DNA of 64,000 nt from positions 2,852,001 through 2,916,000 of the forward strand of contig NZ_CP117996.1 of the NCBI RefSeq assembly GCF_028743715.1. Direction: 5' to 3'. The translations under genes and the position numbers were made by a program. The notes beneath the pieces were generated by a model. The model saw only the letters and a program-made list of their open reading frames with translations. It had not been told where the DNA came from and did no database searches. The DNA comes from Microbacterium sp. Clip185. GTDB lineage: Bacteria > Actinomycetota > Actinomycetes > Actinomycetales > Microbacteriaceae. This document shows positions 13,048 through 43,031 of the stretch, piece after piece; the first letter of the stretch is position 1; each line of letters begins with the position of its first letter.

Positions 13048-13070
13048 CGCTGCTCCTTCTTCTTCTTCTT

Positions 13071-13243: not shown

Positions 13244-13293
13244 TGGGGCGCGACGCCCGGGCCGGATGCGGGTCCGGCCCGGATGCGGGTGCG

Positions 13294-14484: not shown

Positions 14485-14510
14485 GACGCTCCTTCGCGAT
14501 GCGAGGCGGA

Positions 14511-14531: not shown

Positions 14532-14544
14532 CTACACTGGAGCC

Positions 14545-17209: not shown

Positions 17210-17259
17210 GGATGCTCCTTCGCGTGATGGTCGGGTTCCGCCCGGTGCGGGCGGCGGTC

Positions 17260-18264: not shown

Positions 18265-18292
18265 GACGCCTCAGCGTAGACCACCGGAAAAG

Positions 18293-18335
18293 GTTTTCGA
18301 AAACGTTTGACACCCTTTCGGGTGGTTGCCACACT
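18293..18335 (+). promoter_or_regulatory. LacI operator and promoter of the ABC transporter-GH3 operon
   Basis: GTTTTCGAAAAC (18293-18304) is a perfect 12-bp palindrome with a central CG. Two bases further on is TTGACA (18307-18312), and after a 17-bp spacer CACACT (18330-18335), a fair -35/-10 pair for the plus strand. The operator directly abuts the -35 box, a position that fits repression. The rest of the gap to 18455 is an untranslated leader of about 115 bases with nothing else clear. Confidence 0.65.
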
Positions 18336-18455
18336 GACACCGCTCGAACCCTTCGAGCCCCCGCACGACGCCACGTCGAGGCAGCGACGCCACGGATGCT
18401 CGTGCCCACAGCAGCACCTCGGGGTGCGACTCGATGAAGAGAAAAGGTGGATCAC

Positions 18456-19742: not shown

Positions 19743-19749
19743 GAGGTCG

Positions 19750-21659: not shown

Positions 21660-23959
21660 TGTCGCTCGAACAGGATGCGGCCGTGTCCGCCTCAGCCCCC
21701 AGCTCCCGCGTCGTCGACCTGCTCGGGCAGATGACCCTCGAGGAGAAGCTCGCTCAGCTCGTCGGGTTCTGGATCGACCAGGGCGACGAGGTCGTGGCGC
21801 CGATGGCGGGCGAGATGGCCGGCTCCACGCGCTACGCGGATGCGTCGGTGCACGGCATCGGACACCTCACCCGCGTCTACGGCACACGCCCGGTCGATCC
21901 TGTGGAGCGCGCCCAGTGGCTGTGGTCCGAACAGCGCCGACTGCGGGAGCAGACGCGGCTCGGCATCCCCGCGATCGTGCACGAGGAGTGTCTCACGGGC
22001 CTGGCCGCGTGGAAGGCGGCGACCTTCCCGACCCCGCTCGCCTGGGGCGCGGCGTTCGACCCTGAGCTCGTGGCCGAGGTCGGGGAGGCGATCGGTGACT
22101 CGATGCGCGAACTCGGCATCCACCAGGGTCTGGCCCCCGTGCTCGACGTCATCCGCGACCCGCGCTGGGGACGCGTCGACGAGTGCATCGGCGAAGACCC
22201 CTACCTCGTGGGAACCGTCGGCACCGCATACGTGCGGGGCCTGCAGGGTGCGGGTGTGCACGCCACCCTCAAGCACTTCGTCGGCTACTCGGGGTCACAG
22301 GCGGGCCGTAACCACGCACCCGTGCACGCCGGCCGGCGCGAGCTGCAGGACGTGTTCCTGCCGCCGTTCGAGATGGCCGTGCGCGACGGTGGCGCCCGGA
22401 GCGTCATGAACTCCTACGCCGACATCGACGGCGTCCCGGTGGCCGCATCCGGCGAACTGCTGACGGGGCTGCTCCGCGAGGAGTGGGGCTTCGACGGCGT
22501 CGTCGTCTCGGACTACTTCTCCGTCGCGTTCCTCGAGACGATGCACAAGATCGCCGCGGACCGCGGTGAGGCCGCCGCGCTCGCGCTGGCGGCGGGCATC
22601 GATGTGGAGCTTCCCACGGGCGACGCGTATGCGGAGCCCCTCGCCCAGCGGGTCCGCGAGGGCGCGGTGCCGATCACGGACATCGACCGGGCGGTGCTGC
22701 GCGTGCTCACCCAGAAGGAGGAGCTCGGCCTGCTCGATGCCACCTTCGAGGAGCCGGCACCCGCATCCGTCGATCTCGACACTCCTCGCCACCGCGCGCT
22801 CGCACGCCGCCTGGCAGACGAGTCGATCGTGCTGCTCTCCAACGACGGCGTCCTGCCGCTCGCAGAGCCCGCGCGCATCGCGCTGATCGGACCGAACGCG
22901 GATGCGGCCTCGGCACTGATGGGCTGCTACTCCTTCGTCAACCACGTGCTCGCGCACCATCCGGGTGTGCCGATGGGGTTCGAGATCCCGTCGCTGCGTG
23001 AGGCCCTGACGGCGCGCTACCCCGATGCGTGGTTCGACGTCGCCGAGGGGTGCGCCGTCGAGGGCGACGACCGCTCCGGCTTCACGGCCGCGATCGATGC
23101 CGCCCAGGGCGCCGAGGTGGCGATCGTCGCGGTCGGCGACCGGGCCGGGCTCTTCGGCCGGGGAACGGTCGGCGAAGGCAACGATGTGGAGTCGCTCGAG
23201 CTGCCCGGCGTGCAGCGCGAGCTGGTCGAGCGCATCGTCGCCACGGGCACGCCCGTCGTGCTCGTGGTGCTGTCGGGCCGCCCGTACGCGATCGACTGGG
23301 CCCTCGAGGGCGAGACGGCACCCGCCGCGGTGCTGCAGTCATTCTTCCCCGGCGAGGAGGGTGCCACTGCCTTGGCGGCCATCCTCGCCGGGGATTCGGT
23401 GCCGTCGGGCCGGCTGCCCGTCTCGCTGCCGCGGTCGGCGGGGGCGCAGCCGTACAGCTACCTGCATCCGCTGTTGGGTGCGGCGAACGAGATCACGAGC
23501 GCCGACAGCACCCCGGTGCGTCCGTTCGGCTTCGGCCTGTCCTACACACGGTTCACGCACCGCGACCTCGTCGTGGATGCGGATGCGAGCACCGCGGGCG
23601 GGTTCACGGCGCGTGTGGTGGTCGACAACGTGGGTGACCGTCCCGGCGTCGATGTGGTGCAGCTCTACACGCACGACCCCGTCGCCTCGGTGACCCGCCC
23701 GGTCGCGCAACTCGTCGGTTACGCCCGCGTCGAACTCGCCGCCGGTGAGCGGGCCACGGTGGAGTTCGCCGTCCCCGCCGCGCGGCTGGCGTTCTCCGAC
23801 CGCGGCTATCGCCGCGTGGTGGAGCCCGGCGCCCTGGAGGTCTGGGTCGGGCCGTCCTGCGACGAGCGCGAGACGGCCGCCGACACCGCTCTCGCGGGAG
23901 GGGTGCACGAGATCACGGCGCGCGACGAGCGACTCACCGTGGTGAGCGTCACCTCGTAG
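21659..23959 (+). CDS. glycoside hydrolase family 3 beta-xylosidase/beta-glucosidase
   Basis: The 766-residue protein has no signal peptide, so it acts on imported oligosaccharides. Domain order: GH3 N-terminal barrel (20-340) with RLGIPAIVHEECLTG, GLAPVLDVIRDPRWGRVDE, ATLKHFVGYSG and the catalytic nucleophile Asp in GVVVSDYFSV near residue 285; GH3 C-terminal alpha/beta domain (380-600) with ADESIVLLSNDGVLPL; and an FnIII-like domain at the end (about 650-735) with NVGDRPGVDVVQLYTHD. It is the last gene of the transporter operon. Beta-xylosidase is the likelier activity given the neighbouring xyl genes, but GH3 enzymes of this length can also be glucosidases. Confidence 0.92.
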   Translation: MSLEQDAAVSASAPSSRVVDLLGQMTLEEKLAQLVGFWIDQGDEVVAPMAGEMAGSTRYADASVHGIGHLTRVYGTRPVDPVERAQWLWSEQRRLREQTRLGIPAIVHEECLTGLAAWKAATFPTPLAWGAAFDPELVAEVGEAIGDSMRELGIHQGLAPVLDVIRDPRWGRVDECIGEDPYLVGTVGTAYVRGLQGAGVHATLKHFVGYSGSQAGRNHAPVHAGRRELQDVFLPPFEMAVRDGGARSVMNSYADIDGVPVAASGELLTGLLREEWGFDGVVVSDYFSVAFLETMHKIAADRGEAAALALAAGIDVELPTGDAYAEPLAQRVREGAVPITDIDRAVLRVLTQKEELGLLDATFEEPAPASVDLDTPRHRALARRLADESIVLLSNDGVLPLAEPARIALIGPNADAASALMGCYSFVNHVLAHHPGVPMGFEIPSLREALTARYPDAWFDVAEGCAVEGDDRSGFTAAIDAAQGAEVAIVAVGDRAGLFGRGTVGEGNDVESLELPGVQRELVERIVATGTPVVLVVLSGRPYAIDWALEGETAPAAVLQSFFPGEEGATALAAILAGDSVPSGRLPVSLPRSAGAQPYSYLHPLLGAANEITSADSTPVRPFGFGLSYTRFTHRDLVVDADASTAGGFTARVVVDNVGDRPGVDVVQLYTHDPVASVTRPVAQLVGYARVELAAGERATVEFAVPAARLAFSDRGYRRVVEPGALEVWVGPSCDERETAADTALAGGVHEITARDERLTVVSVTS

Positions 23960-23974
23960 GCGCCGAGCGAGACG

Positions 23975-24011
23975 GGCCGGCGCGCGCTGGGGGACAGATC
24001 GCGCGCCGGCC
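23975..24011 (+). terminator. hairpin terminator after the GH3 gene
   Basis: GGCCGGCGCGCG (23975-23986) and CGCGCGCCGGCC (24000-24011) form a perfect 12-bp stem with a 13-nt loop, beginning 16 bp after the GH3 stop. CTCTTC follows instead of a T-run. Confidence 0.75.
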
Positions 24012-24039
24012 TCTTCACGTCCTGCCGCGAGCCCGCCCC

Positions 24040-24072
24040 GGTCGTTGAGCGAGCGCAGCGAGACGAAACGCC
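24040..24072. repeat. candidate dispersed intergenic repeat
   Basis: The stretch reads GGTCGTTGAGCGAGCGCAGC followed by GAGACGAAACGCC. I recognise near-identical words from intergenic spaces of many actinobacterial genomes, where they occur in many copies; that is from memory, and only one copy is in this window. The rest of the 304-bp gap (23960-24263) holds the GH3 terminator and, from about 24120, GC-rich sequence leading to the aminotransferase; no gene is visible there. Confidence 0.45.
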
Positions 24073-24263
24073 GCGACCCGGCCCACACCCCGCATCCCGC
24101 CACACCTCTGCGCAACGGCCACAGAGAATCACTGGTGCATCCGCGGGAAAGTGGCGCATCTGCGCACCTGCAACGCGACTCGGGCAGGGAAAGCGGGGAC
24201 CGTCCGGCGGGTACAGTTTCGCCGAGGGCGGGAGTATCGTCGGGCGCAACGAAAGGCGCCGAC

Positions 24264-25664
24264 ATGACTGATGAGCCCGCACCGTCCTTCGATATCGCCG
24301 ACCTGCAGTCCAAGGCGCGCGACCACCTCTGGATGCACTTCGCCCGCCAGTCCACGATGGACGCGCCCGACGGGGTCCCCATCATCGTCCGCGGCGAGGG
24401 CCATCACATCTGGGATGCGGCAGGGCGCCGCTACATCGACGGACTCGCCGGGCTGTTCGTCGTCAACGCGGGGCACGGCCGACGCCGCCTGGCCCAGGCC
24501 GCAGCGCGCCAGGCCGAGCAGCTCGCCTTCTTCCCGATCTGGTCCTACGCGCATCCCGCCGCGATCGAGCTCGCCGACCGGCTGGCGCATCTCGCGCCGG
24601 GGGACCTCAACCACGTCTTCTTCTCCACAGGCGGCGGCGAGGCGGTCGAGACCGCGTTCAAGCTCGCAAAGAACTACTGGAAACTCGTCGGCAAGCCCGG
24701 CAAGCACAAGGTCATCTCCCGCGCCATCGCCTACCACGGCACCCCGCAGGGGGCGCTCGCGATCACGGGGCTTCCGGGCATGAAGCAGATGTTCGAGCCG
24801 CTCACGCCGGGCGGCTTCCGCGTGCCGAACACCAACTTCTACCGCGCCGCAGAGATGGGCTTCTCCGGAACCTCGGAAGAGGAGTTCGGGCGGTGGGCGG
24901 CGGATCGCATCGAGGAGATGATCCTGTTCGAGGGCCCCGACACCGTCGCCGCCGTCTTCCTCGAGCCGGTGCAGAACTCCGGCGGATGCTTCCCTCCCCC
25001 GCCCGGCTACTTCGCGAGGGTGCGGGAGATCTGCGACAGGCACGACGTTCTGCTGGTCAGCGACGAGGTCATCTGCGCCTTCGGACGCGTCGGGGAGTAC
25101 TTCGCCGCCGACGCCTTCGGGTACCAGCCCGACATGATCACCTTCGCGAAGGCGGTCACGAGCGGCTACTCGCCGCTGGGCGGCACGATCGTCAGCGACC
25201 GCATCTACGAGCCGTTCGCGACCGGGACGACGAGCTTCGCGCACGGCTACACCTTCGCGGGGCATCCGGTCTCGGCGGCGGTCGCCCTCGAGAACCTCGA
25301 CATCTTCGAGGAGGAGCAGCTCAACCTGCACGTTCGCGAGAACTCGCCGCTGTTCCGGGCCGCCCTCGAGCGGCTGACCGATCTGCCGATCGTGGGAGAC
25401 GTCCGCGGCGCCGGGTACTTCTTCGGCATCGAACTCGTCAAGGACAAGGCGACGAAGGAGACCTTCGACGACGCCGAGTCCGAGCGTCTGCTTCGGGGGT
25501 TCCTCTCCAAGGCCCTGTACGACGCCGGGCTCTACTGCCGCGCTGACGACCGCGGCGACCCCGTCATCCAGCTCGCCCCGCCGCTCACGATCGGACCGGC
25601 GGAGTTCGACGAGATCGAGCAGATCCTGCGCGGCGTGCTCACCGAGGCCTGGCAGCGTCTCTGA
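24264..25664 (+). CDS. class III PLP-dependent aminotransferase (omega-amino acid type)
   Basis: The 466-residue enzyme is a fold-type I, class III aminotransferase. Signatures: IWDAAGRRYIDGLAGLFVVNAGHG near the start, FFSTGGGEAVETAFKLAKNYW (phosphate cup), VFLEPVQNSGGCFPPPPGYF, LLVSDEVICAFGRVGEYF with the PLP-binding Asp, and MITFAKAVTSGYSPLGG with the Schiff-base Lys. These fit the beta-alanine:pyruvate or putrescine-type omega-transaminase group. The frame is open further upstream, but ATG 24264 has GAAAGG at the right spacing and starts the conserved region. It is monocistronic or cotranscribed with the hydrolase 36 bp downstream. Substrate unknown. Confidence 0.92.
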   Translation: MTDEPAPSFDIADLQSKARDHLWMHFARQSTMDAPDGVPIIVRGEGHHIWDAAGRRYIDGLAGLFVVNAGHGRRRLAQAAARQAEQLAFFPIWSYAHPAAIELADRLAHLAPGDLNHVFFSTGGGEAVETAFKLAKNYWKLVGKPGKHKVISRAIAYHGTPQGALAITGLPGMKQMFEPLTPGGFRVPNTNFYRAAEMGFSGTSEEEFGRWAADRIEEMILFEGPDTVAAVFLEPVQNSGGCFPPPPGYFARVREICDRHDVLLVSDEVICAFGRVGEYFAADAFGYQPDMITFAKAVTSGYSPLGGTIVSDRIYEPFATGTTSFAHGYTFAGHPVSAAVALENLDIFEEEQLNLHVRENSPLFRAALERLTDLPIVGDVRGAGYFFGIELVKDKATKETFDDAESERLLRGFLSKALYDAGLYCRADDRGDPVIQLAPPLTIGPAEFDEIEQILRGVLTEAWQRL

Positions 25665-31429: not shown

Positions 31430-32413
31430 ATGACACGTTTCGGCTACACCCTCATGACCGAGCAGAGCGGGCCGCGCGAGCTCGTACGCTATGCCGCCGG
31501 CGCGGAGGAGGCGGGATTCGACTTCCTCGTCTCGAGCGACCACTTCTCACCGTGGCTGACGAGCCAGGGACACGCCCCGCACGCGTGGACCGTGCTGGGA
31601 GCCGTCGCGCAGGCGACGAACCGCGTCGAGCTGATGACGTACGTGACCTGTCCGACGATGCGCTACCACCCCACGATCGTCGCCCAGAAGGCCGCCACGC
31701 TGCAGCTCCTCTCCGAAGGACGCTTCACGCTGGGCCTCGGCTCCGGCGAGAACCTCAACGAGCACGTCGTCGGGGAAGGCTGGCCCGCCGTGCAGATGCG
31801 CCAGGACATGCTCGTCGAGGCCATCGAGATCATCCGGGCCCTGCACACGGGCGAACTCGTCACCTACGACGGCCAGTACTTCCGCGTCGACTCCGCCCGC
31901 ATCTGGGACAACCCCGAGGGCGGCGTGCCCATCGGCGTCGCGGTGTCCGGCGACAGCTCCATCGAGAAGTTCGTAGACCTCGCCGAGCACCTCATCGCCG
32001 TCGAGCCGGATGCCGACCTCGTGCACGCATGGGACAGCAAGCAGCCGGCGGGCGGCTCGGAATCGGGCGAGTCGCGCAAGATCGGCCAGATCCCGATCAG
32101 CTGGGATCCGGACCGCGACGCGGCGATCGCCCGCGCGCACGACGAGTTCCGCTGGTTCGGCGGCGGCTGGGGCGTCAACGCCGACCTGCCCACGCCCGCA
32201 GGGTTCGCGGCCGCATCCCAGTTCGTGCGTCCGGAGGACGTCGCGGACTCGATCGCGTGCGGGCCGGACCTCGACGAGCTGGCCGAAAGCGTGCGACCGT
32301 TCCTGGATGCGGGCTTCACGGACGTCGCGGTCGTGCAGATCGGCGATGCGCAGCAGGAGCGTTTCGTCGCCGAGGTCGCCGCACCCCTGCTCGAGAAGCT
32401 CCGCGCCCTCTGA
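31430..32413 (+). CDS. F420-dependent LLM-class oxidoreductase, glucose-6-phosphate dehydrogenase-like
   Basis: The 327-residue protein is a luciferase-like TIM barrel of the F420-using branch. It starts TRFGYTLMTEQSGPRELVRYA, and shows FLVSSDHFSPWLTSQGHAPHAWTVLGAVAQAT, RYHPTIVAQKAATLQLLSEGRFTLGLGSGENLNEHVVG and WDNPEGGVPIGVAVSG. These match the TIGR03557/Fgd-like subgroup, whose members use coenzyme F420; not all oxidise glucose 6-phosphate. GGAAGGACGACGCG precedes the ATG. It is divergent from the lipoprotein-CDF pair. A Ddn-like F420 protein at 46364 suggests the host makes F420. Confidence 0.9.
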   Translation: MTRFGYTLMTEQSGPRELVRYAAGAEEAGFDFLVSSDHFSPWLTSQGHAPHAWTVLGAVAQATNRVELMTYVTCPTMRYHPTIVAQKAATLQLLSEGRFTLGLGSGENLNEHVVGEGWPAVQMRQDMLVEAIEIIRALHTGELVTYDGQYFRVDSARIWDNPEGGVPIGVAVSGDSSIEKFVDLAEHLIAVEPDADLVHAWDSKQPAGGSESGESRKIGQIPISWDPDRDAAIARAHDEFRWFGGGWGVNADLPTPAGFAAASQFVRPEDVADSIACGPDLDELAESVRPFLDAGFTDVAVVQIGDAQQERFVAEVAAPLLEKLRAL

Positions 32414-32554: not shown

Positions 32555-34162
32555 TCAGTCGACGGGCAGGCGGACCGCCGTGCGCGCCTCGGCGAGCTCC
32601 GCGGCGGTCCGCTCCCGGCTCCAGGAGCGCGCCTCGGCCATGATGTCCGCGGCGAGGCCGAGGATGCGCTCCCCGGGATCCTGGAGGCGGCCGATCCCGG
32701 TGCGCCGCAGCAGCACGTCGGTGAGGTGCTCGGGAGCCTCATCGCGCACGGCCCACGCGACTGCCGCGAGCGGCTCGCCGTCGGAAGTGGCGCGCTCGGC
32801 GAGACGCGGGTCGGATGCGGCAAGAGCCAGCACGGAACGAGCCCTGCTGCCGTAATGGGCGAAGAGCACGTCGGCTGTGTCCGCCGCGAAACCGAGCCCC
32901 GCGGCATCCCGACGGAGCACCGCCTGCGCGGCCGTGACGTCGTCGACATCGCCACCGGGAAGGGGCGTCTTCGCGGTGGTCGAGGGGGCTGGGCGCAGTC
33001 CGTGCGCGGCCAGGCGGTCGACGATCTGCTGGGCGAAGGCGCGGGAGGTCGTGTACTTGCCGCCGAGCGCGGAGAACAGACCCGCGACCCCGTGACGCGC
33101 ATGATCGACGAGATCGGATGCGCGGGAGGCCCGGTACGTGTCGGTGCCCGCCGACTCGGCGAGCGGACGCAGGCCGCCGTACGCGGCCGTGACATCGTCG
33201 AGTGTCAGCGGCTCCGGCAGCTTCGCGCCCGCGTTGATCTCGGCGATGAACCGCTCGATCGCGCCCAGTGTGAGCCGCCACTGGTCCACAGGACCGGTGT
33301 ACGGCGTCTCTGTGGGCCCGATGAGGCTGCGATCACGCCACGGGGCGACGCTGAAGTGCCCGCCGGAGGAGACCGTCAGCACCATCGTCTCGCCGAGGCG
33401 CCGGGTGACGAGGTAGATGCCCTCCGAGCGCACGGCGGGTGCCGGGCCGATGGTCTCGCGCAGCGCCGGGGTCCGGGCGAGGAAGTCGTGCGAGAAGGAG
33501 CCGGTCGCATCGATCGTCACCGTGGCGGCGATCTCCGCCGTCTCGTCCGAGACGGCATCGTGCACCTCGGCCCCGACCACGCGCCCCGCGCGCACGAGCA
33601 GCTTCGTCGCACGGGTGTACGTCGAGATGGTCGCACGGTGGGATGCGGCCGCCTCCGCGAAGGCGAGCGTGAGGCGTTCCGGCGAGAGCATCATCGCGTC
33701 GTAGTAGAGGATGCCGTGCCGCATCCATCCGAGGCCGCGATCGACGAGCTCGGCGGGCGACAGCGATCGGTGCCGGGGGATGTGTGCGGACGCGTCCGCG
33801 AGCCGGTTGCGGTCGAACGACAGCGCGTCGTACGCGGTCAGGCCGACATGCTCGATGAGTCCCGGCTCGGGCAGCACCATGCCGATCGGGCGCACGAGGT
33901 GCGGCGCGATGGCGAGCAGGGTGCGGCGCTCGGCGAGGGACTCGCGCACGAGGCGCACCTCGAGGTTCTTGAGGTAGCGCAGACCGCCGTGGATGAGCTT
34001 GCCGGTGGCGGCACTCGTGGCGCCGCCGAGATCACCCGCCTCGACGAGCGCCACGGAGAGCCCGCGACTCGCCGCCTCGTACGCGATGGCGACACCGGTG
34101 ATACCGCCGCCGACGACGAGCACGTCGACCGCGCCGTTCGGCAGAGCGCGCCGCAGACTCAT
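32555..34162 (-). CDS. FAD-dependent glycerol-3-phosphate dehydrogenase-like enzyme (GlpD family)
   Basis: The 535-residue flavoenzyme has the Rossmann start VDVLVVGGGITGVAIAYEAASRG, the GlpD signature TSAATGKLIHGGLRYLKNLE, RPIGMVLPEPG and, in the C-terminal DAO_C domain, LFAHYGSRARSVLALA. GlpD proteins oxidise sn-glycerol 3-phosphate to DHAP at the membrane and pass electrons to quinone; relatives oxidise other polyol phosphates such as erythritol 4-phosphate. Start ATG 34162 overlaps the kinase stop (ATGA). It is last in an operon with an APH-fold kinase and a class II aldolase, so its true substrate may be a sugar-alcohol phosphate made by that kinase. Confidence 0.85.
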   Translation of the reverse strand: MSLRRALPNGAVDVLVVGGGITGVAIAYEAASRGLSVALVEAGDLGGATSAATGKLIHGGLRYLKNLEVRLVRESLAERRTLLAIAPHLVRPIGMVLPEPGLIEHVGLTAYDALSFDRNRLADASAHIPRHRSLSPAELVDRGLGWMRHGILYYDAMMLSPERLTLAFAEAAASHRATISTYTRATKLLVRAGRVVGAEVHDAVSDETAEIAATVTIDATGSFSHDFLARTPALRETIGPAPAVRSEGIYLVTRRLGETMVLTVSSGGHFSVAPWRDRSLIGPTETPYTGPVDQWRLTLGAIERFIAEINAGAKLPEPLTLDDVTAAYGGLRPLAESAGTDTYRASRASDLVDHARHGVAGLFSALGGKYTTSRAFAQQIVDRLAAHGLRPAPSTTAKTPLPGGDVDDVTAAQAVLRRDAAGLGFAADTADVLFAHYGSRARSVLALAASDPRLAERATSDGEPLAAVAWAVRDEAPEHLTDVLLRRTGIGRLQDPGERILGLAADIMAEARSWSRERTAAELAEARTAVRLPVD

Positions 34163-34977
34163 GCCGCCGCCAGGTCGGCGCGGATGCCGGCGATCATGCG
34201 CTCGCGCTCGGACGCGATGTCGAGAAGCCCCAGACGCAGCACGCGCGCGGCGATCTCCCATCGATCGAGGTCGGCGACGCTGACGGTGCCGGCCCGCAGA
34301 TACGACCGCAGGTAGAAGCGGAGGAGGATACGGCGCACCGCCCCGTAGACGACGCGCATCGGCGCCGAGGTACCGGGGAAGAGCTCCGCCTCGCGGAACA
34401 GCAGACGCGTGAGGGCGACGTCGGCGGCGGGCTGGCCGGCGACCGCCGTCTGCCAGTCGATGACGACGTTGCGCCCGGCGAGCACGAACACGTTCTGCGG
34501 GTGGAAGTCCAGGTGCAGCACCGCATCGCCGGCGGGGAGGGCGCGGATGCGGCGGGCGACGGCATCCCGTTCGGTCGGTGTGAGGGCCGAGAGCGCGGGG
34601 GTGTCCAGCTGCGCGACAGCGAGCTCGCGCACGTCGGGCAGGCGGTCGGTGCGAGCGCGGTGGACGAACAGGTGCTCGGCGGCGAGAGTGCTGCCCACCT
34701 GAGGCAGGCGCAGGATGTTGCGTTCGGCGACGGCCGTGAGCGGGATGCCGTCGATGCGGTCGAACACGATGCCGTGGCGTCCGTCCATCTCGATGCCACC
34801 GTGACAGCGCACCGGGGTGATGCCGAGCTCGTACGCGAGGCGCGAGGCGGCGATCTCTTGAGCGACCTCGGTCGCGTCGATGCCGGGAAAGGCGAGCTTG
34901 ACGACGCGGTCGTCGCCATCGGCGAAGACCTCGGCGGACCGACCGCGCGCGATCGGACGGGAGCCCACGGCGCTCAT
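34159..34977 (-). CDS. small APH-fold phosphotransferase
   Basis: The 272-residue protein belongs to the aminoglycoside phosphotransferase/choline kinase-like fold. The catalytic loop HLDFHPQN is at 155-162 with D157, the metal-binding Asp is D174 in VIDWQ, and a likely ATP-binding Lys is K27 in VVKLAF. It starts at ATG 34977 inside the aldolase stop (ATGA) and ends inside the GlpD-like start (ATGA), so it is tightly coupled to both. Antibiotic resistance is unlikely in this setting; a metabolic kinase acting on a sugar, a sugar alcohol or a methylthioribose-like compound is more plausible. I cannot name the substrate. Confidence 0.8.
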   Translation of the reverse strand: MSAVGSRPIARGRSAEVFADGDDRVVKLAFPGIDATEVAQEIAASRLAYELGITPVRCHGGIEMDGRHGIVFDRIDGIPLTAVAERNILRLPQVGSTLAAEHLFVHRARTDRLPDVRELAVAQLDTPALSALTPTERDAVARRIRALPAGDAVLHLDFHPQNVFVLAGRNVVIDWQTAVAGQPAADVALTRLLFREAELFPGTSAPMRVVYGAVRRILLRFYLRSYLRAGTVSVADLDRWEIAARVLRLGLLDIASERERMIAGIRADLAAA

Positions 34978-35648
34978 CGCTCGGCTCGCTGCGGCTGGCC
35001 GTATCCGCGACGAGTGGCGGCCTCCACGACCGCGCGCTGCGCGACGGCGTCCAGCGCGCGAGGCTCGCCGATGGCGCGCGCGTGCCAGTACAGATCGCAG
35101 ATCCACTCCGTCAGCAGCGCATTCTCGACCGCGTGGACGAGGTCGCGCCCGAGGGCGACGGCACCGTGATTGGCCATGAGCGCGGCGAGTCGCCCGTCCA
35201 GCGCTGCCCCCACGGCGTGCGCGAGTTCGACGCTTCCGAACGGGTGGAAGGGGGCGACCCGCAGTGCCCCGCCGAGAAGCAGCTGCTGGTAGTGCACGAC
35301 CGGCACCTCGTCGAGCACGAGCGAGAGGCTCGTCGCCATGGGTGCGTGGGTGTGCACCACCGCCCCGACCTGATCGGCGGGTGCGTGCCGGAGCACGCCC
35401 AGATGCAGCGCCGTCTCGGATGTGGGCGCCCAGTCGCCCTCGACGACCTCGCCCTCGAGCGTGACGATCGTCACCTGTTCCGGGGTGAGCTCACCAAGCA
35501 CGGCGCCGGTGGCCGTCACGGCGGCGAGCTCGCCGATGCGCATGCTGACGTTGCCGGCGGTGCCGACGAGCAGGCCTGCTTCGGCCAGGGATCGGGAGGC
35601 GTCTGCCACCGCGACGCGCGCGGCGGAGATATCTGACGTCGTTGTCAT
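34974..35648 (-). CDS. class II aldolase/adducin family enzyme
   Basis: The 224-residue protein matches zinc-dependent class II aldolases of the L-fuculose-phosphate aldolase/ribulose-phosphate epimerase/MtnB group. GTAGNVS (30-35) binds phosphate, E78 in PTSETALH is the likely catalytic residue, and the zinc ligands H99 and H101 (VVHTHAP) and H161 (ANHGAVALG) are all present. Such enzymes cleave sugar phosphates to DHAP and an aldehyde. It is the first gene of the aldolase-kinase-dehydrogenase operon. A promoter read from the sequence would start the transcript at or next to the ATG, so the messenger may be leaderless. Confidence 0.88.
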   Translation of the reverse strand: MTTTSDISAARVAVADASRSLAEAGLLVGTAGNVSMRIGELAAVTATGAVLGELTPEQVTIVTLEGEVVEGDWAPTSETALHLGVLRHAPADQVGAVVHTHAPMATSLSLVLDEVPVVHYQQLLLGGALRVAPFHPFGSVELAHAVGAALDGRLAALMANHGAVALGRDLVHAVENALLTEWICDLYWHARAIGEPRALDAVAQRAVVEAATRRGYGQPQRAER

Positions 35649-35654
35649 GGCGCT

Positions 35655-35693
35655 AGCATGACCGCGAGCACAAACCAAAGTCAAGTTTGGTTT
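35655..35693 (-). promoter_or_regulatory. TetR operator overlapping the aldolase operon promoter
   Basis: AAACCAAA (35672-35679), GTCAAG, TTTGGTTT (35686-35693) is a perfect 8-bp inverted repeat. On the minus strand the spacer holds TTGACT, a good -35 box, with CATGCT as -10 after 18 bp (35660-35655). The predicted start of transcription falls on the aldolase ATG at 35648. The operator thus covers the -35 box, as expected for repression by the divergent TetR protein. Confidence 0.65.
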
Positions 35694-35714
35694 TCGACGG
35701 AAGGATGCGGCACC

Positions 35715-36347
35715 GTGACACGCCTCGCTGCGACGGAACCGGACTGGGACCGCATCCCGCTGCAGCGCGCACCCCGCCAGGACCGCTCGCGCGAGAAGGT
35801 GGCGCGGGCGCTGGCGGCCGCATCCGATCTCGTGGCGCGAGAAGGCGTGGCGGCTCTGACGCTCCCGCGCGTGGCCGAGGCCGCGGGGGTCAGCGTGGGC
35901 GCCCTGTACCAGTACCTTCCCGACCGTGACGCGATCGTGCGTGCCCTCGTGGCGGAGTACCACGCACAACTCGAGACTCTGCTGGAGAACGCGGTCGTCC
36001 TGACGCGTGAGAGCACGCCGCCCGCCGACCCCGTGGGCCATGTGATCGACGCCGTCGCCGAGATCTATCGCGACCGCGATGCGGTGCGCACTCTCGGCAC
36101 CGCCTCCGCCGGCGGCCCCATTGACGCCGACCGCGCGGCACACAAGCAGCGGATGGCCGAGGCCGCCGCGCGCCTCCTCCATGCCAGCGGGCTCACCCGT
36201 GACGAGACGGATGCGACGGCCCGCGCGCGTGTCGCGTTCCTCGCCGCCGACGCTGTGCTGCACGACGCCTTCGCTGCCCCGCCCGATGCGCAGGAACAGA
36301 CCCTGCACGAGCTACGCCTGCTCCTTCGCCGCTACCTCCAGCCCTGA
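35715..36347 (+). CDS. TetR/AcrR-family repressor, probable regulator of the aldolase operon
   Basis: The 210-residue protein has an N-terminal helix-turn-helix (about 20-65: DRSREKVARALAAASDLVAR, then LPRVAEAAGVSVGALYQYLPDR) and a helical ligand domain. GTG 35715 is the chosen start, since an upstream frame from 35658 would run through the operator; the first conserved residues follow about 18 residues later. It is divergent from the aldolase operon, with the perfect AAACCAAA/TTTGGTTT operator between them, so it probably represses that operon and possibly itself. Ligand unknown, but a substrate or intermediate of the aldolase pathway is likely. Confidence 0.85.
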   Translation: MTRLAATEPDWDRIPLQRAPRQDRSREKVARALAAASDLVAREGVAALTLPRVAEAAGVSVGALYQYLPDRDAIVRALVAEYHAQLETLLENAVVLTRESTPPADPVGHVIDAVAEIYRDRDAVRTLGTASAGGPIDADRAAHKQRMAEAAARLLHASGLTRDETDATARARVAFLAADAVLHDAFAAPPDAQEQTLHELRLLLRRYLQP

Positions 36348-36527: not shown

Positions 36528-37031
36528 TCAGCCGATGGGGCCGCGCATGTCGTCGAACCCGGCGGCGCGGGCGGAGGTGCGCACCCAGTCGAACACGATC
36601 TGCGTCTCGGTCGAGGCGACCGCGGGATCCATGCTCAGGCGCGTGGCGACGAAGTCACGCAGCTGCTCCGGCGAGGTCGTGACGACGTGGATGAGAAAGT
36701 CGGTCTGGCCGCCGAGGAAGAAGAGATTCAGGACGTTCGGCAGACGCGAGACCTTCTCGGCGTAGGTCTTGATCGCCGGACGCGCCTGCGCGCGGAGTTT
36801 GACCGCGACGATGGCTTGGAGCGGCAGCCCCAATGCTGCGAAGTCCACGTCGGCGTGGGCCGAACCGAGGGCACCCGACTCCCGCAGCGCCCGCACGCGT
36901 GCGTGCGTCGTCGACGGCGAGAGCCCGACGCGCGCCGCGAGCGCCGCGTTGGTCTGCGACGCGTCGCGACGAAGCTCCCAGAGGATGCGCTCGTCGACCG
37001 AGTCCATCCGTCGGTTCTGCGCCTGCGCCAT
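36528..37031 (-). CDS. Lrp/AsnC-family regulator, AldR-like
   Basis: The 167-residue protein has the AsnC helix-turn-helix (residues 9-55: MDSVDERILWELRRDASQTNAALAARVG, then LSPSTTHARVRAL) and the RAM ligand domain (about 80-160, with GGQTDFLIHVVTTS). It is divergent from the alanine dehydrogenase gene, the same arrangement as aldR and ald of mycobacteria, where the regulator senses alanine and activates ald. It therefore probably senses L-alanine or other amino acids and controls ald and itself from the 148-bp gap between them. Confidence 0.9.
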   Translation of the reverse strand: MAQAQNRRMDSVDERILWELRRDASQTNAALAARVGLSPSTTHARVRALRESGALGSAHADVDFAALGLPLQAIVAVKLRAQARPAIKTYAEKVSRLPNVLNLFFLGGQTDFLIHVVTTSPEQLRDFVATRLSMDPAVASTETQIVFDWVRTSARAAGFDDMRGPIG

Positions 37032-37064
37032 GATCCACCCCGCATCCGGCCGGAGCTTCTACGG

Positions 37065-37086
37065 AATTCTCGCGCTGGGGAGAATT
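37065..37086. promoter_or_regulatory. candidate AldR/AsnC binding site
   Basis: AATTCTC (37065-37071), eight bases, GAGAATT (37080-37086) is a perfect inverted repeat in the AT-rich part of the AsnC-ald gap. AsnC-family octamers bind several such sites; a weaker AT-rich stretch with GATTCTGACACGATTTTC follows at about 37103-37120. Confidence 0.5.
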
Positions 37087-37179
37087 GTCTTCGGCAGGTA
37101 GTGATTCTGACACGATTTTCTTCTAGATTCGGCCCGCTCCAGACGAACATCCTGATACATCGACACGAAGGACGGCGCC

Positions 37180-38271
37180 ATGCGCATCGGAATCCCCACC
37201 GAGGTCAAGAACCACGAGTACCGCGTCGCCGCCACGCCCGCCGGCGTGCGCGAGCTCGTGCGCCACGGCCACGAGGTCTCGGTGCAGCGCGGCGCCGGCA
37301 TCGGCAGCTCGATCACCGACGAGGAGTTCGCCGCCGCGGGTGCGCGGCTCGTCGACGTCGCCGAAGCGTGGGCGGCCGAGCTCGTCCTCAAGGTCAAGGA
37401 GCCGATCCCCTCCGAGTACGGCTATCTGCGCGACGACCTCACCCTCTTCACCTACCTGCACCTGGCCGCCGACGAGCACCTCGTCGACGCACTGCTGGCC
37501 GCCGGCACGACGGCCATCGCGTACGAGACCGTTCAGCTGCCCGATCGCTCCCTGCCGCTGCTGGCCCCCATGAGCGAGGTCGCCGGACGCCTGTCCGTGC
37601 TGACCGGCGGCTACCACCTCCTCGGTTCGCAGGGCGGCCGCGGGGTCCTGCTGGCCGGAGTCCCCGGCGTGCGTCCCGCGAAGGTCGCGGTCATCGGCGG
37701 CGGCATCGCCGGCAGCAATGCGGTCGCGCAGGCCGTGGGCCTCGGCGCGGACGTCACCGTGCTCGACATCTCCATCCCGCGGCTGCGTCAGCTCGACGAC
37801 CTGTACCGCGGCGCGGTGCGCACGGTGGCATCCAGCGCCTACGAGATCGAGCGCACGGTGCTGGAGGCAGACCTCGTCATCGGAGCCGTCCTCATCCCCG
37901 GCGCGAAGGCGCCGCATCTCGTCTCGCACGAGATCGTCGAGCGGATGAAGACGGGCAGCGTGCTCGTGGACATCGCCATCGACCAGGGCGGGTGCTTCGA
38001 AGACTCCCACCCCACCACCCACGACGACCCGACATTCCGTGTCGGCCCCACGATCTTCTCCTGCGTGGCGAACATGCCCGGCGCCGCCGCCGGCACCTCG
38101 ACGCCCGCCCTGACCAATGCGACGCTGCCCTACGCACTGGCTCTCGCCGACAAGGGATGGGAGCGGGCCCTCGCCGACGATCCGGCCCTGGCGCTCGGAC
38201 TCAACACGCTCGGGGGTTCAATCGCGAACGCGGGCGTCGCCGCGGCCTTCCCCGACAAGCCCCGCGTCTGA
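37180..38271 (+). CDS. ald: alanine dehydrogenase
   Basis: The 363-residue NAD-dependent enzyme interconverts L-alanine with pyruvate and ammonia. It opens [20 protein letters not shown] with the substrate-binding Arg and Lys, has HLAADEHL with the catalytic-region His, MSEVAGRLS, the Rossmann motif [20 protein letters not shown] and [17 protein letters not shown]. The length is normal. ATG 37180 follows a GAAGGACGGC-type ribosome binding site. Divergent AsnC-type regulator suggests control by alanine supply, and the enzyme can serve both alanine catabolism and redox balance under low oxygen. Confidence 0.97.
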
Positions 38272-38405
38272 CGCCGGCCGTATGCGGGGCGCCCCGCAGC
38301 CCGGACGCCCCCTCCGCCCGGTGCCCCGCAGATTACGGCGGCGTTTCCCGCACCTGCGAATCGCGGCGAATGCTTGCCCCGCACGGGGTGCGTGCGCTTT
38401 CATGA

Positions 38406-38416
38406 ACCAACTTGGT
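38406..38416. promoter_or_regulatory. candidate TetR operator upstream of the SDR operon
   Basis: ACCAA-C-TTGGT is a perfect palindrome, partly extended as TGA-ACCAACTTGGT-CA, about 43 bp upstream of the SDR start. The operon encodes a TetR protein as its second gene, so autoregulation is likely. The remainder of the 187-bp gap after ald holds a perfect TGCGGGGC/GCCCCGCA palindrome near 38283-38298, possibly the ald terminator. Confidence 0.5.
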
Positions 38417-38458
38417 CAAACGTCCAACTGCGATGGCGCAGAGACGGAGGAGGCTCAT

Positions 38459-39256
38459 ATGCAGGAAACGCGGCGACCCGTGGCGGTCGTGACGGGCGCG
38501 AGCTCGGGGCTCGGACGCGGCTACGCGGAGCGTTTCGCCGCCCGCGGCCACGATCTCGTGCTCATCGCCCGCCGAGCGGACCGACTCGAGGAGCTCGCCG
38601 CCACGCTGCGCTCGCAGCACGGCCGACAGGTCGATGTGATCCCGGCCGACCTCGCCGATCCCGCTGCCCCCGAGCAGATCGCGGCCGAACTCGCGCAACG
38701 CTCGCTCACGGCGGAGGTCCTGGTGAACTGCGCCGGGTTCGGAACCGCGGGCGCCTTCGCCGGCGAGGACCCCGCGCGCATCGCTCAGGAGATCGCGGTC
38801 GATGTGACCGCACCCACACTGCTCACCCGGCTGCTGCTGCCGGACCTGCTCGCCGCCGACGGCGGCATCCTGCTCATGGTCTCCAGCACCGCGGGCCACC
38901 AGCCCACCCCCAACCTCGCCGTGTACGGCGCGTGCAAGGCGTTTCTCACCTCGCTGACCGCCTCGATCTGGGAGGAGAACCGCGGATCCCGGATGCGGGT
39001 GCTGGCCGTCTGCCCGGGCCCGACCGCGACCGAGTTCTTCGAGGCGTCGGGTTCCGAGCAGTTCAAGGTGGGCCGCGTCGGCACGATCGACGAGGTGCTC
39101 GACGCGACGTTCACCGCCCTCGACGCCCGCCGCGGCCCCGTCGTCACGGTCGGCTGGGGCAACCGCATCCAGTCGATCGGCTCGAAGCTCGCGCCGCGCC
39201 GGCTGACCCTCAGAGTGGGCCGCACCGCGACAGAGCGCGCCGGAAGGAACGCCTGA
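38459..39256 (+). CDS. short-chain dehydrogenase/reductase
   Basis: The 265-residue classical SDR has TGASSGLG at 12-19 for NAD(P) binding, NCAG near residue 90, the catalytic Ser in MVSSTAGH, and YGACK as the YxxxK pair. A basic residue pair after the second strand (ARRADRL) favours NADP. The sequence up to AVCPGPTATEFF is typical of SDRs acting on short ketones or acyl compounds; the C-terminus (about 230-265) is basic. GGAGG precedes ATG 38459. It is first in a five-gene operon, its stop overlapping the TetR start (TGATG). Substrate unknown. Confidence 0.9.
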   Translation: MQETRRPVAVVTGASSGLGRGYAERFAARGHDLVLIARRADRLEELAATLRSQHGRQVDVIPADLADPAAPEQIAAELAQRSLTAEVLVNCAGFGTAGAFAGEDPARIAQEIAVDVTAPTLLTRLLLPDLLAADGGILLMVSSTAGHQPTPNLAVYGACKAFLTSLTASIWEENRGSRMRVLAVCPGPTATEFFEASGSEQFKVGRVGTIDEVLDATFTALDARRGPVVTVGWGNRIQSIGSKLAPRRLTLRVGRTATERAGRNA

Positions 39257-39867
39257 TGCGCCGACTCTCGTTCGAGGAACGCCGCAGCGAACTGCTCGAC
39301 GCGGCCGTCCGGGTCATCGGCCGCGAGGGTCTGGCGGCCGCCACCACCCGCGCGATCGTCGCCGAGGCCGACATGCCGCTCGGGGCATTCCACTACGTGT
39401 TCGCCTCGCGCGACGACCTGATCGCCGCGATCGTCGAGCACATCACCGAGCAGGAGCGCCTCGCGGCGTGGATGGATGCCGACACCGACGCGACGTGCGC
39501 CGAAGTGCTGGCACGAGGCCTGGACGCCTACCTGCGGCTGCTCGAGTCGGAACCGCAGCGCGAGATGACCCTGCTCGATGTCGCCACGCACGCCATGCGA
39601 CACGACCCGGAGGCGGTTCAGCGCCAATGGGCCACTTATCGCGCCGCGGCCCGCGCCAGCCTCTCCTACGCCGCCGAGCTCGCCCGCATCACGTGGACGC
39701 GGCCGCTCGACGAGCTGGCCTGGTCACTGGCGAGCTGCCTCGACGGACTCACCCTCTCGTGGCTCAGCACGCGCGACTCGGATGCGGCCCGCCGCCACAT
39801 CCGTCTGCTCGCCGATGCCTTCGCCACCTATGCCACCCCCGTGAAGGAGACCACCGATGCTCACTGA
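39256..39867 (+). CDS. TetR/AcrR-family regulator inside the SDR operon
   Basis: The 203-residue protein starts MRRLSFEERRSELLDAAVRV and has the TetR helix-turn-helix to about residue 50 (TTRAIVAEADMPLGAFHYVFASRDDL). The C-terminal domain (80-200) resembles the BetI-like TetR_C group. Its gene overlaps the SDR stop (TGATG) and the next gene start by 11 bp, so it is an integral operon member, most likely an autorepressor acting at the palindrome at 38406. Its ligand would be a compound handled by the operon. Confidence 0.88.
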   Translation: MRRLSFEERRSELLDAAVRVIGREGLAAATTRAIVAEADMPLGAFHYVFASRDDLIAAIVEHITEQERLAAWMDADTDATCAEVLARGLDAYLRLLESEPQREMTLLDVATHAMRHDPEAVQRQWATYRAAARASLSYAAELARITWTRPLDELAWSLASCLDGLTLSWLSTRDSDAARRHIRLLADAFATYATPVKETTDAH

Positions 39868-40624
39868 GACCGACGCCCGCGTGCTCGCGCTCACCAACGC
39901 GCGAGCCGTACTGGGAGCCCTGCCCCGACTGGTCGAGCTCGTGCCCGAGGCCAGACGCATCCTCGGGACCCTGCCCTCGCCGACGACGCTCTCGCTCGTC
40001 GCGCCGGGCATCCCCGTGACGCGATACCGCTTCTCTTCCGAGGGCATCGCCCCGGTGTCCGAGGGCCGCGGCCCGACCCTGATGTTCCGCTCCGTCGAGC
40101 ACCTCAACGCCGTCATCGCCGGGACCGCGCAGCCCATCCCGATCGCGGGACCCGCCGGCATCCGGTTCCTGACGCGAGTGTTCACGCCGCTCACCGACCT
40201 GCTCGGCGTGTACCTGAAGCCCGATGAGGCGCGCCTCGCGGATGCGGAGTTCCGCCGCCGCAGCACGCTGCTCACCCTCGAAGTGGCGGCGCGCGCGATC
40301 GCCGTCGTCGGCAACGAGGACACCAGCGGGCGCTTCTCCGCCGCGCACATGCCCGACGGCGATCTCGACCTCGAGATCGGCGACGAGCTGCGCTACCGCC
40401 TCGAGGTGAAGAATCACCGCATCCGCCTCGACGACGACCAATCAGACCCGCCGCGCGCCGCCCTCCGCTTCGCCGACCTCGACGTCGCCGGGGGCGTGAT
40501 CAGCGGCCGCGACAGCGCTCTGGCCTGCGTCTGCGACGGCCGACTCGCCATGCGCGGTTTCATCCCCCTCGTCGACAACACCAGCCGCATCCTCGACCGC
40601 GTCGGCGCCTACCTCGGAGCGTGA
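39857..40624 (+). CDS. SCP2-like lipid-binding-domain protein
   Basis: The 255-residue protein has no signal peptide or span. Its C-terminal part (about 165-255), with DGDLDLEIGDELRYRLEV, RAALRFADLDVAGGVISGRD and ACVCDGRLAMRGFIPLVDNTSR, resembles the SCP2 sterol-transfer fold, which binds hydrophobic ligands. The N-terminal part has YRFSSEGIAPVSEGRGPTLMF, which does not match a family I can name. It overlaps the TetR gene by 11 bp and is followed at 2 bp by the aminotransferase. It may carry or bind a hydrophobic substrate of the SDR and aminotransferase. The assignment is moderate. Confidence 0.7.
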   Translation: MLTETDARVLALTNARAVLGALPRLVELVPEARRILGTLPSPTTLSLVAPGIPVTRYRFSSEGIAPVSEGRGPTLMFRSVEHLNAVIAGTAQPIPIAGPAGIRFLTRVFTPLTDLLGVYLKPDEARLADAEFRRRSTLLTLEVAARAIAVVGNEDTSGRFSAAHMPDGDLDLEIGDELRYRLEVKNHRIRLDDDQSDPPRAALRFADLDVAGGVISGRDSALACVCDGRLAMRGFIPLVDNTSRILDRVGAYLGA

Positions 40625-40626
40625 TC

Positions 40627-41883
40627 ATGAGCACCCCCACCCTGACCCCCGTCTACAGCTACACGAAGAGCAACGAGGCGTTCGCCCGGGCCGTGAAGGT
40701 CATCCCCGGCGGCGTGCCCGGACACCTCGGCCCCTCCGAGGGCTGCTTCATTCCCCGTTCGGCATACCCGCTGTTCTCCGAGCGTGCCGAGGGGACCCGC
40801 TTCTGGGACGTCGACGGCAACGAGTACATCGACTACATGTGCGGCTACGGTCCGAACGTGCTGGGCTACGGAGACGCGGATGTGGCCGCCGCAGCTCAGG
40901 CGCAGGCGCGGAAGGAGGACGTCGTCTCGCTCCCCTCGACCACGATGATCGACCTGGCGGAGCTGCTGGTGGACACCGTCGCCAGCGCCGACTGGGCGTT
41001 CTTCGCGAAGAACGGCGGCGACACGACGACGCTGGCCATCATGACCGCCCGCGCCGCGACCGGCCGACGACGCATCGTCTTCATCGAGGGCTACTACCAC
41101 GGCGTCGCACCGTGGACGCAGAAGCTCGACTATCCCGGCGTGCTCGACACCGACGTGCAGGGCAACATCGAGGTGCCGTGGAACGACATCGAGGCCATGC
41201 GCCGGGTATTCACCGAGCACCGCGGCGAGATCGCCGCACTCATCGCCCAGCCGTACAAGCACGGCAACTTCTTCGACAACGCCCTGCCCGCCCAGGGGTA
41301 TTGGCAGGCGGTGCGACGGCTGTGCGACGAGCACGGCGTCGTGCTGATCGTCGACGACGTGCGCGCGGGCTGGCGGTTGGATCTCGCCGGCAGCGACCAC
41401 TTCTACGGCTTCGAAGCGGACCTCATCTGCTTCTGCAAGGCCATCGCGAACGGCTACAACATGTCGGCGCTGTGCGGCAAGGACAGCCTGCGCGAGGCGG
41501 TGTCGAGCATCACCTACACGGGCAGCTATTGGATGAGCGCGGTGCCCTTCGCCGCCGGCATCGCCACGATCGAGAAGCTCAAGGCGATCGATGGCCCCGC
41601 CCTGTTCCGCGAGCTGGGCACGACGCTGACGGCGGGGCTCACCGAGGTGGCGGCCTCGCACGGCCGGACGCTCGTCGCCTCCGGCGAGCCGGCTCTGTTC
41701 TACCTGCGTCTCGCCGACGACGAATCGCTCATGCTGCATCAGCGGTGGATCGCCGAGTGCGTGCAGCGCGGCGCTTTCTTCAGCTCCCACCACAACCACT
41801 TCATCAACGCGGCCCTCACGAGCGCGGACATCACCCGGACGCTCGAGATCGCCGACGAGGCGTTCCGCGCGATCGAGGCATGA
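40627..41883 (+). CDS. glutamate-1-semialdehyde aminomutase-like class III PLP enzyme
   Basis: The 418-residue protein is a fold-type I class III enzyme near glutamate-1-semialdehyde 2,1-aminomutase. Evidence: FWDVDGNEYIDYMCGYGPNVLGYGD, FAKNGGDTTTLAIMTARAAT, LIVDDVRAGWRLDLAGS with the PLP Asp, and DLICFCKAIANGYNMSAL with the Schiff-base Lys. The tail differs from true HemL, and in an SDR/MFS operon a haem role is unlikely, so it is better called an aminotransferase or aminomutase of unknown substrate. ATG 40627 with GGAG upstream is preferred; a GTG at 40621 overlaps the previous stop. Its stop overlaps the MFS start (ATGA). Confidence 0.88.
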   Translation: MSTPTLTPVYSYTKSNEAFARAVKVIPGGVPGHLGPSEGCFIPRSAYPLFSERAEGTRFWDVDGNEYIDYMCGYGPNVLGYGDADVAAAAQAQARKEDVVSLPSTTMIDLAELLVDTVASADWAFFAKNGGDTTTLAIMTARAATGRRRIVFIEGYYHGVAPWTQKLDYPGVLDTDVQGNIEVPWNDIEAMRRVFTEHRGEIAALIAQPYKHGNFFDNALPAQGYWQAVRRLCDEHGVVLIVDDVRAGWRLDLAGSDHFYGFEADLICFCKAIANGYNMSALCGKDSLREAVSSITYTGSYWMSAVPFAAGIATIEKLKAIDGPALFRELGTTLTAGLTEVAASHGRTLVASGEPALFYLRLADDESLMLHQRWIAECVQRGAFFSSHHNHFINAALTSADITRTLEIADEAFRAIEA

Positions 41884-43031
41884 CCGCGCTGCCGGCACTG
41901 CGCACGCGCGGGGCGGCCGTCGGCGCCGCCTACGCTGCGCAGGGTCTCGGCTACGCCACGATCGTCACCGCCCTGCCGACGATCAAGGACCGCGTCGACA
42001 TCGGCGACGACGCGGTGTCGATGCTCCTGCTCGCGACCTGCCTCGCCGCCGCTCTCGGATCGGTGCTCGCCGACGTGATCGCCGTGCGCGCCGGCAGCAG
42101 ACTCGCCCTCGCGTCGGGGCTCGCGGCGCAGGCGGTGGGACTCCTCTTCGTCAGCTTCACCGCATCCCTGCCGGTACTGATCGTCGCCATCGTGCTGTAC
42201 GGCGTGGGACTGGGCGCGGTCGACGCGTCATCGAACATGCAGGGCTCGCTCCTACAGCGCCACCACGAGCGCCCGGTGTTCGGCAGGCTGTACGCCGGGT
42301 ACACGGGCGCGGCGATCGTGGCGACCGGCGTCACGGCGGCGGTGCTCGCCACCGGGGCCCCCGCGGGCCTCACTCTGGTCATCGCGGCGGTGGCGCAGAT
42401 CGCGATCGCCGGATGGGGCCTCCGCGCCTTCGACCCCACGCGTGCGGCCCACGAGGTCGACGACTCCGCCGCATCCCGCCCCTCGCTGCCGCGCCGCGCG
42501 ATCTGGGCGGTGGGAGCGATCGTCTTCGCGGCGTTCGTCGTCGACTCCGCCGTCGCGAGCTGGAGCACGATCTACCTGACCGACGGGCTGCGCGCCGACC
42601 CGGGCGTCACACCTCTCGGCTACGGGGCGTATCTCGTCGCGATGCTGGCGGCGCGTCTGGGCACAGACCCGCTCGTGCGACGGATCGGACGGATGCGGCT
42701 GGGCATCGCCGCGGTCGTCGTGGCCGTGGCGGGCGCCGTGCTGGTGGCGGCTGCCCCGTTCGTGCCCGCGGCGATCGTCGGCTTCGCGGCGATGGGCGTG
42801 GCCTCAGGGGCGCTCGTGCCGATCGCGTTCAGCCGCGCCGGCGAGCTGCTTCCCGAGCGCAGCGACGAGGTGATCGCGCGCGTGAACCTGTTCAACTACG
42901 CGGGTGCCGTCGCCGGAGCGGTCGCGCTCGGACTCATCGCTGCCGGGCCGTCGCTCGGCCCGGCGTTCCTCGTGCCCGCCGTCATCCTCGCCGCACTCTC
43001 GCCCCTGTTGCGCACGCTTCGCCGCCACTGA
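41880..43031 (+). CDS. MFS transporter
   Basis: The 383-residue integral membrane protein has about 12 hydrophobic segments with a loop of about 25 polar residues in the middle (RAFDPTRAAHEVDDSAASRP). A short basic stretch LLQRHHERPVFGRLYAGYTGA between spans is typical of MFS proteins of the FucP/YbjJ-like type. It is the last gene of the SDR operon and overlaps the aminotransferase start (ATGA). It probably imports the pathway substrate or exports its product; direction cannot be read from the sequence. Confidence 0.88.
   Translation: MTALPALRTRGAAVGAAYAAQGLGYATIVTALPTIKDRVDIGDDAVSMLLLATCLAAALGSVLADVIAVRAGSRLALASGLAAQAVGLLFVSFTASLPVLIVAIVLYGVGLGAVDASSNMQGSLLQRHHERPVFGRLYAGYTGAAIVATGVTAAVLATGAPAGLTLVIAAVAQIAIAGWGLRAFDPTRAAHEVDDSAASRPSLPRRAIWAVGAIVFAAFVVDSAVASWSTIYLTDGLRADPGVTPLGYGAYLVAMLAARLGTDPLVRRIGRMRLGIAAVVVAVAGAVLVAAAPFVPAAIVGFAAMGVASGALVPIAFSRAGELLPERSDEVIARVNLFNYAGAVAGAVALGLIAAGPSLGPAFLVPAVILAALSPLLRTLRRH

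Follow-up and report, generated by a model that had tools for sequence, protein, structure and literature searches.

Within a 64,000-nucleotide stretch of the genome of Microbacterium sp. Clip185 (hereafter the window, G000:C1:2852001-2916000; host genome 3.3 Mb), the genes for a class II aldolase, an APH-fold small-molecule kinase and a GlpD-like flavoenzyme form an operon, which is accompanied by a divergent gene for a TetR-family regulator (Table 1). This four-gene unit is real and functionally coupled, and no account of such a gene combination is known to us from the limited open-licence literature searches made here. With slightly better than even confidence, it is read here as an inducible catabolic unit, in which phosphorylation, oxidation by the GlpD-like enzyme and class II aldol cleavage would release dihydroxyacetone phosphate (DHAP) and an aldehyde; the reactions, the order of the steps, the repression and the class of substrate are those that we infer from sequence.

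The first line of evidence is the conservation of the unit. The three enzyme genes overlap by four bases each, with ATGA at 34974-34977 (aldolase/kinase) and at 34159-34162 (kinase/GlpD-like), just as the initial annotation had described with the right coordinates. Within the genus, the kinase was found at E <= 1e-25 in 15 of 366 genomes; since this search scored some six first-look candidates for each genome, the number may be a lower bound. In all 15 genomes the aldolase, kinase, GlpD-like and divergent tetR genes stand in the same order, with a kinase identity of 49-100%. The complete unit is also present in two Nocardioides, namely sp. GY 10127 (L002, kinase 54% identical) and a second genome (L072, 44%), which are the sole matches among 128 sampled Nocardioides genomes, one of them being the starting genome. 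Both four-base overlaps, as NTGA, recur at every locus inspected for them, 15 in total, of which 13 come from the genus and two from Nocardioides. A failure of the three orthologues to co-occur had been set beforehand as the outcome that would refute the proposal; of the 18 loci carrying this type of kinase, 17 hold them together, the exception being L003.

Beyond these loci, a family sample of 299 genomes yielded one further kinase match, 34% identical, and a class sample of 394 genomes likewise one, on a 3.3-kb contig. Near these two relatives (G036 and G822, 34-36% identical), the fetched stretches of 10 kb and 3.3 kb gave no match to the aldolase, the GlpD-like protein or tetR. The closest named match is from Microbacteriaceae bacterium PS02066 (97%), followed by named Microbacterium matches at 78-69%, and relatives are also listed for Gordonia, Cellulomonas, Propionicimonas and Leptospira. 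On plasmids, six distant records (26-35% identity) were retrieved, and the two that were inspected have unrelated neighbours. Public records name such proteins generically, for example as 'aminoglycoside phosphotransferase family protein' or 'class II aldolase/adducin family protein'.

The second line of evidence comes from the control region. An inverted repeat that overlaps the -35 box between tetR and the aldolase gene, and that did not arise in any of 100 shuffles, aligns in 17/17 units. A spacer of 17-18 bases leads to a weak -10-like hexamer, and the start codon comes 6-7 bases later. This short distance suggests that the operon mRNA is probably leaderless. Allowing for up to three mismatches, the operator occurs exactly once per genome in all 17 unit-bearing genomes and in none of six genomes without the unit, and the operator read backward, used as a control, gave no site in these 23 genomes. 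The conserved operator is the best support for the local TetR control that the initial annotation had proposed, with repression as its predicted mode. Further regulon members of this TetR were considered and rejected, since the operator is single per genome in the 17 genomes. For tetR itself, the GTG at 35715 is a more likely start than the ATG at 35658, because the operator (35672-35693) falls between both candidate starts and the alignable part of the orthologues sets in close to the GTG.

Table 1. Features of the four-gene unit and of the linked cluster, in window coordinates.
Feature	Position	Strand	Family or basis
GlpD-like FAD-dependent dehydrogenase, 535 aa	32555..34162	-	PF01266 (DAO) and PF16901 (DAO_C); residue comparison
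APH-fold small-molecule kinase, 272 aa, motif HLDFHPQN ... IDW	34159..34977	-	PF01636 (APH)
Class II aldolase, 224 aa	34974..35648	-	PF00596 (Aldolase_II), 137 bits
Predicted promoter: -35 TTGACT (35684-35679), 18-base spacer, -10-like CATGCT (35660-35655), then 6 bases to the start codon	35655..35684	-	Predicted from sequence
Operator, inverted repeat AAACCAAA-N6-TTTGGTTT, 22 bases	35672..35693	.	Between tetR and aldolase, covers the -35 box
TetR-family regulator, GTG start likely	35715..36347	+	PF00440 (TetR_N); divergent from the operon
SDR oxidoreductase, exact start uncertain	38396..39256	+	PF00106
Second TetR	39253..39867	+	PF00440
Protein X, 255 aa, SCP2 fold in residues 139-252	39857..40624	+	No Pfam match
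Class III aminotransferase, FumI-like	40621..41883	+	41% identity over 399 aa to FumI (6hbs)
MFS transporter	41880..43031	+	PF07690

The enzymes were assigned with Pfam and with NCBIfam models at their curated cut-offs. The Pfam matches bear out the identities first proposed for the aldolase, the kinase and the regulator. The aldolase carries the FucA-type class II motifs, and by pattern match GTAGN together with (T)SE...H is present in 17/17 rows, HTHA in 15/17 and ANHG in 16/17. Its top NCBIfam match is the haloarchaeal ribulose-1-phosphate aldolase (157.3 bits, under the cut-off of 300), and the best model for L-fuculose-phosphate aldolase (FucA) gives 123.1 bits, where 264 are required. 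The GlpD-type flavoenzyme of the initial annotation holds as a GlpD-like protein with DAO and DAO_C domains and not as GlpD proper, since its scores of 253.7 and 226.7 bits remain under the cut-offs of 360 and 352 of the two GlpD models. The residues aligned to E. coli GlpD R54, Y55, R317, R332 and K354, which we take to be phosphate-binding, are kept in 17/17 rows (16 distinct loci; L072 left out). All 17 rows display GPTE where E. coli GlpD has GTTD (T270, D272), and a RSEGIYL-stretch pattern is found in 13 of them; for E. coli H233, the two aligners left the matching residue ambiguous, and it was not used. A second GlpD homologue of the host genome has GTTD, and thus the housekeeping function need not fall to the operon copy.

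Taken as a pathway, TetR would sit on the operator over the -35 box until a ligand frees it, and the operon would then be transcribed as a probably leaderless mRNA with overlapping genes. The APH-fold kinase would phosphorylate a terminal hydroxyl of an alditol-like compound, and the GlpD-like flavoenzyme would oxidise the adjacent hydroxyl to a 1-phospho-2-ketone, that is, the head of a ketose-1-phosphate. The class II aldolase would finally cut the C3-C4 bond, yielding DHAP and an aldehyde bearing the remainder of the molecule. This order, already put forward in the initial annotation, agrees with the residue conservation, with the conserved translational overlaps and with the regulation at the locus. 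By its predicted steps, the unit is probably a variant of the DHAP shunt with a GlpD-type oxidation in place of the aldose isomerase. Since the oxidation stands where an isomerase would be, the input should be alditol-like and not an aldose. Candidate substrates are a soluble alditol and an amino-polyol of lipid-like character.

Several observations weigh against this catabolic reading. The operon itself holds neither a transporter nor an aldehyde dehydrogenase gene. All three enzymes score under the curated cut-offs of named enzymes, so that none is a plain member of one of these, while their Pfam assignments are strong. The aldolase type is widespread, with 4935 proteins at E <= 1e-30, and therefore its presence alone says little. 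Furthermore, in a metagenome-assembled genome of Acidipropionibacterium that harbors the kinase, both partner genes are missing from the 8 kb around it.

The kinase family bears on two other explanations. The folds nearest to the kinase are those of antibiotic and choline kinases, which would suit a protective role, in which a toxic alcohol or an antibiotic-like compound is inactivated by phosphorylation and its phosphate is then removed by the oxidase and the aldolase; TetR control, a single operator and a transporter-free operon suit defence as well as catabolism. Nevertheless, the kinase scores under every resistance-family cut-off of NCBIfam, and an oxidase and an aldolase after an inactivating phosphorylation would be unusual, which makes protection unlikely. 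Up to E 10, the NCBIfam matches of the kinase comprise TIGR02172 and two thiamine kinase models, all under cut-off, and no methylthioribose-kinase model is among them. The salvage of 5-deoxyribose or methylthioribose, offered as an option in the initial annotation, would amount to the DHAP shunt proper, and a kinase and a class II aldolase in one operon are indeed a feature of the drd and mtn clusters in the excerpts consulted of their descriptions (PMC6079011; PMC12632272). However, besides the missing kinase match, the operon contains no isomerase, and the GlpD-like enzyme would have no role in that route, which is thus highly improbable.

A second cluster at 38396-43031, outside the region of the initial annotation (32555-36347), is linked to the operon within the genus. 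It encodes a short-chain dehydrogenase/reductase (SDR), a second TetR, protein X with an SCP2 fold, a class III aminotransferase and a transporter of the major facilitator superfamily (MFS). FumI, an aminotransferase for hydrolysed fumonisin, is the closest solved relative of the aminotransferase (6hbs, 312 bits; next 165), and the aligned lysine is kept in a K-x-x-A-N-G stretch. The gene of protein X is present in 15/15 kinase-bearing genomes of the genus and in 2 of the 135 kinase-less ones that were tested (0/55 and 2/80, out of 351), corresponding to 8e-19 in a Fisher test that ignores shared descent. It lies less than 7 kb from the kinase in 14 of the 15 genomes, the two genes being on separate contigs in G321, and the orientation of the linked cluster is inverted between two sets of genomes. 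In Microbacterium sediminicola, the kinase and the aldolase appear to share one contig and X to be on another, so that operon and X may be unlinked there. In G583 (L058, ~5441-6205), the match to X is split in two pieces, hence a frameshift or an assembly error is possible. No match to X was found among plasmid sequences. Between both clusters, in the window and in close relatives, an Lrp/AsnC regulator and an alanine dehydrogenase are encoded (36528-38271); the latter could recycle alanine from a pyruvate-using aminotransferase.

Outside the genus, the kinase operon and the FumI-like cluster occur apart. The unit of Nocardioides sp. GY 10127 comes without a close relative of the aminotransferase, the best FumI-like match in that genome being 33% identical. 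In the same locus, another class III aminotransferase (PF00202, L002:11185-12489) lies 0.8 kb past the GlpD-like gene. Conversely, a TetR, an SCP2-fold protein and a FumI-like aminotransferase, mostly with an SDR and an MFS transporter, are found without the kinase operon at L056, L059, L060, L061, L094 and L095. This recurrent actinobacterial cluster probably represents a small pathway or detoxification system of its own. The operator of the operon, which at up to three mismatches has a single copy in each of the 17 unit-bearing genomes, was not found at the second cluster, which is thus not shown to be under the TetR of the operon.

These data bear on the nature of the substrate. A small soluble alditol is a reasonable possibility, although clearly short of an even chance; most simply, a pentitol would be converted via a pentulose-1-phosphate to DHAP and glycolaldehyde, with the FumI-like cluster unrelated and merely co-inherited in the genus. 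The best NCBIfam match of the aldolase, the solitary units of the two Nocardioides and the restriction of the operator to the operon are all in line with this. On the other hand, the window, L002 and L072 show no sugar transporter gene inside the operon or adjoining it, and the FumI-like/SCP2 cluster is linked to the operon within the genus. A search of the open-licence literature on xylulose-1-phosphate from polyols retrieved nothing.

It is more doubtful that the substrate is a hydrophobic amino-polyol. Here, the FumI-like aminotransferase would pass the amine to pyruvate, the SDR would reduce the resulting carbonyl, the operon enzymes would yield DHAP and a long-chain aldehyde, and the SCP2 protein would hold the lipid. 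Six genomes (G062, G116, G122, G914, G336 and G359) possess X and the aminotransferase without the kinase, the unit of Nocardioides sp. GY 10127 has the opposite deficit, and no operator is common to both clusters. In addition, the kinase carriers of the genus may be few lineages, so that the co-occurrence counts are not independent, and with an amine at C2 the GlpD-like oxidation would merely reverse the SDR step. Still less probable is the specific proposal that both clusters together catabolise an environmental compound, for instance a base of the phytosphingosine type or a lipid with a terminal amino-polyol such as an aminobacteriohopanepolyol. Transamination, SDR reduction, phosphorylation and oxidation would then be followed by cleavage, with DHAP split off from an aldehyde that is long-chain or polycyclic. 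With a terminal amine, every enzyme would be used once and in its customary reaction. Open-licence literature on the degradation of bacteriohopanetetrol by an aldolase was not found, and the titles and abstract openings of the matches listed for bacterial phytosphingosine or sphingosine catabolism, including Microbacterium, contain no such route. As a source of substrate, own hopanoid synthesis was rejected: PF13243 (squalene-hopene cyclase) is present in 0/15 kinase-bearing genus genomes, which makes an internal hopanoid substrate unlikely, and exceeds the cut-off only in G914 (1/21).

Relatives of the aldolase are found in other operons as well. The best plasmid relative (54-56%) is encoded in Streptomyces sp. 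NBC_00015, where its gene and a TetR gene are divergently oriented; next on this plasmid (L096:9600-11999), one 799-aa frame fuses a PfkB kinase and a flavin amine oxidase, of which the record annotates the oxidoreductase part only, followed by an SRPBCC protein. In this one case, an amine-removing step, a kinase and a protein of a lipid-transport family again surround the aldolase type of the operon. A Rubrobacter plasmid operon with an ABC transporter, GlpD, a glycerol-kinase-type kinase and a class II fructose-bisphosphate-type aldolase has the same logic built from other families, which favours the catabolic reading. Like this operon, that of the Rhodococcus opacus relative, with an FGGY kinase, an MFS transporter and a zinc dehydrogenase, is an ordinary sugar-type operon.

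In the window, the gene convergent with the operon end (31430-32413) encodes an F420-dependent LLM oxidoreductase (TIGR03557) and is missing from the L002 and L026 flanks. A candidate region for xylose/xylan utilisation (~10970-25664), judged by eye from translations, comprises a kinase, an isomerase, LacI, an ABC transporter and glycosidases. Scans of the 64 kb for tRNA and Rfam families gave no match.

If the proposed order of steps is right, the unit would be a DHAP-shunt-like route from a polyalcohol with a flavoenzyme instead of an isomerase, and a defined substrate would correct the generic annotations of its proteins. A functional link between operon and FumI-like cluster would point to a route by which bacteria process amino-polyol lipids, sphingoid-like ones among them, and would provide new candidate enzymes acting on sphinganine-analogue mycotoxins; should the amino-polyol substrate be true, sphingoid or hopanoid head groups would be dismantled without a lyase.

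Among known systems, the erythritol pathway likewise combines a polyol kinase, EryA, with a subsequent GlpD-family polyol-phosphate dehydrogenase, EryB. EryA is an FGGY kinase, in contrast to the APH kinase (PF01636) found here, and to our knowledge no class II aldolase of the operon's kind follows in that pathway. The DHAP shunt (DrdK-DrdI-DrdA; MtnK-MtnA-Ald2) proceeds, in the excerpts consulted, by phosphorylation and then class II aldol cleavage to DHAP and an aldehyde, with a dedicated regulator in E. coli (PMC6079011; PMC12632272). The operon shares with it the logic of kinase and class II aldolase, the three-gene arrangement and the FucA-type aldolase motifs. In contrast, the kinase here is not of the methylthioribose family by NCBIfam, and the GlpD-like oxidase replaces the isomerase, no aldose-1-phosphate isomerase being encoded in the operon, to which this comparison is confined, the remaining genome not having been searched. 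The closest curated family of the aldolase belongs to the haloarchaeal non-carboxylating pentose bisphosphate pathway. Its ribulose-1-phosphate aldolase forms DHAP together with glycolaldehyde and takes several aldehydes as substrates, whereas the kinase, isomerase and phosphatase of this pathway belong to other families, according to the sections consulted (PMC9700705). Finally, a match of 61-74% to FumI enzymes is reported for transaminases with demonstrated activity towards hydrolysed fumonisin B1 (PMC9858248), compared with the 41% of the aminotransferase in the linked cluster, whose partners are an SDR, an SCP2-fold protein and an MFS transporter.
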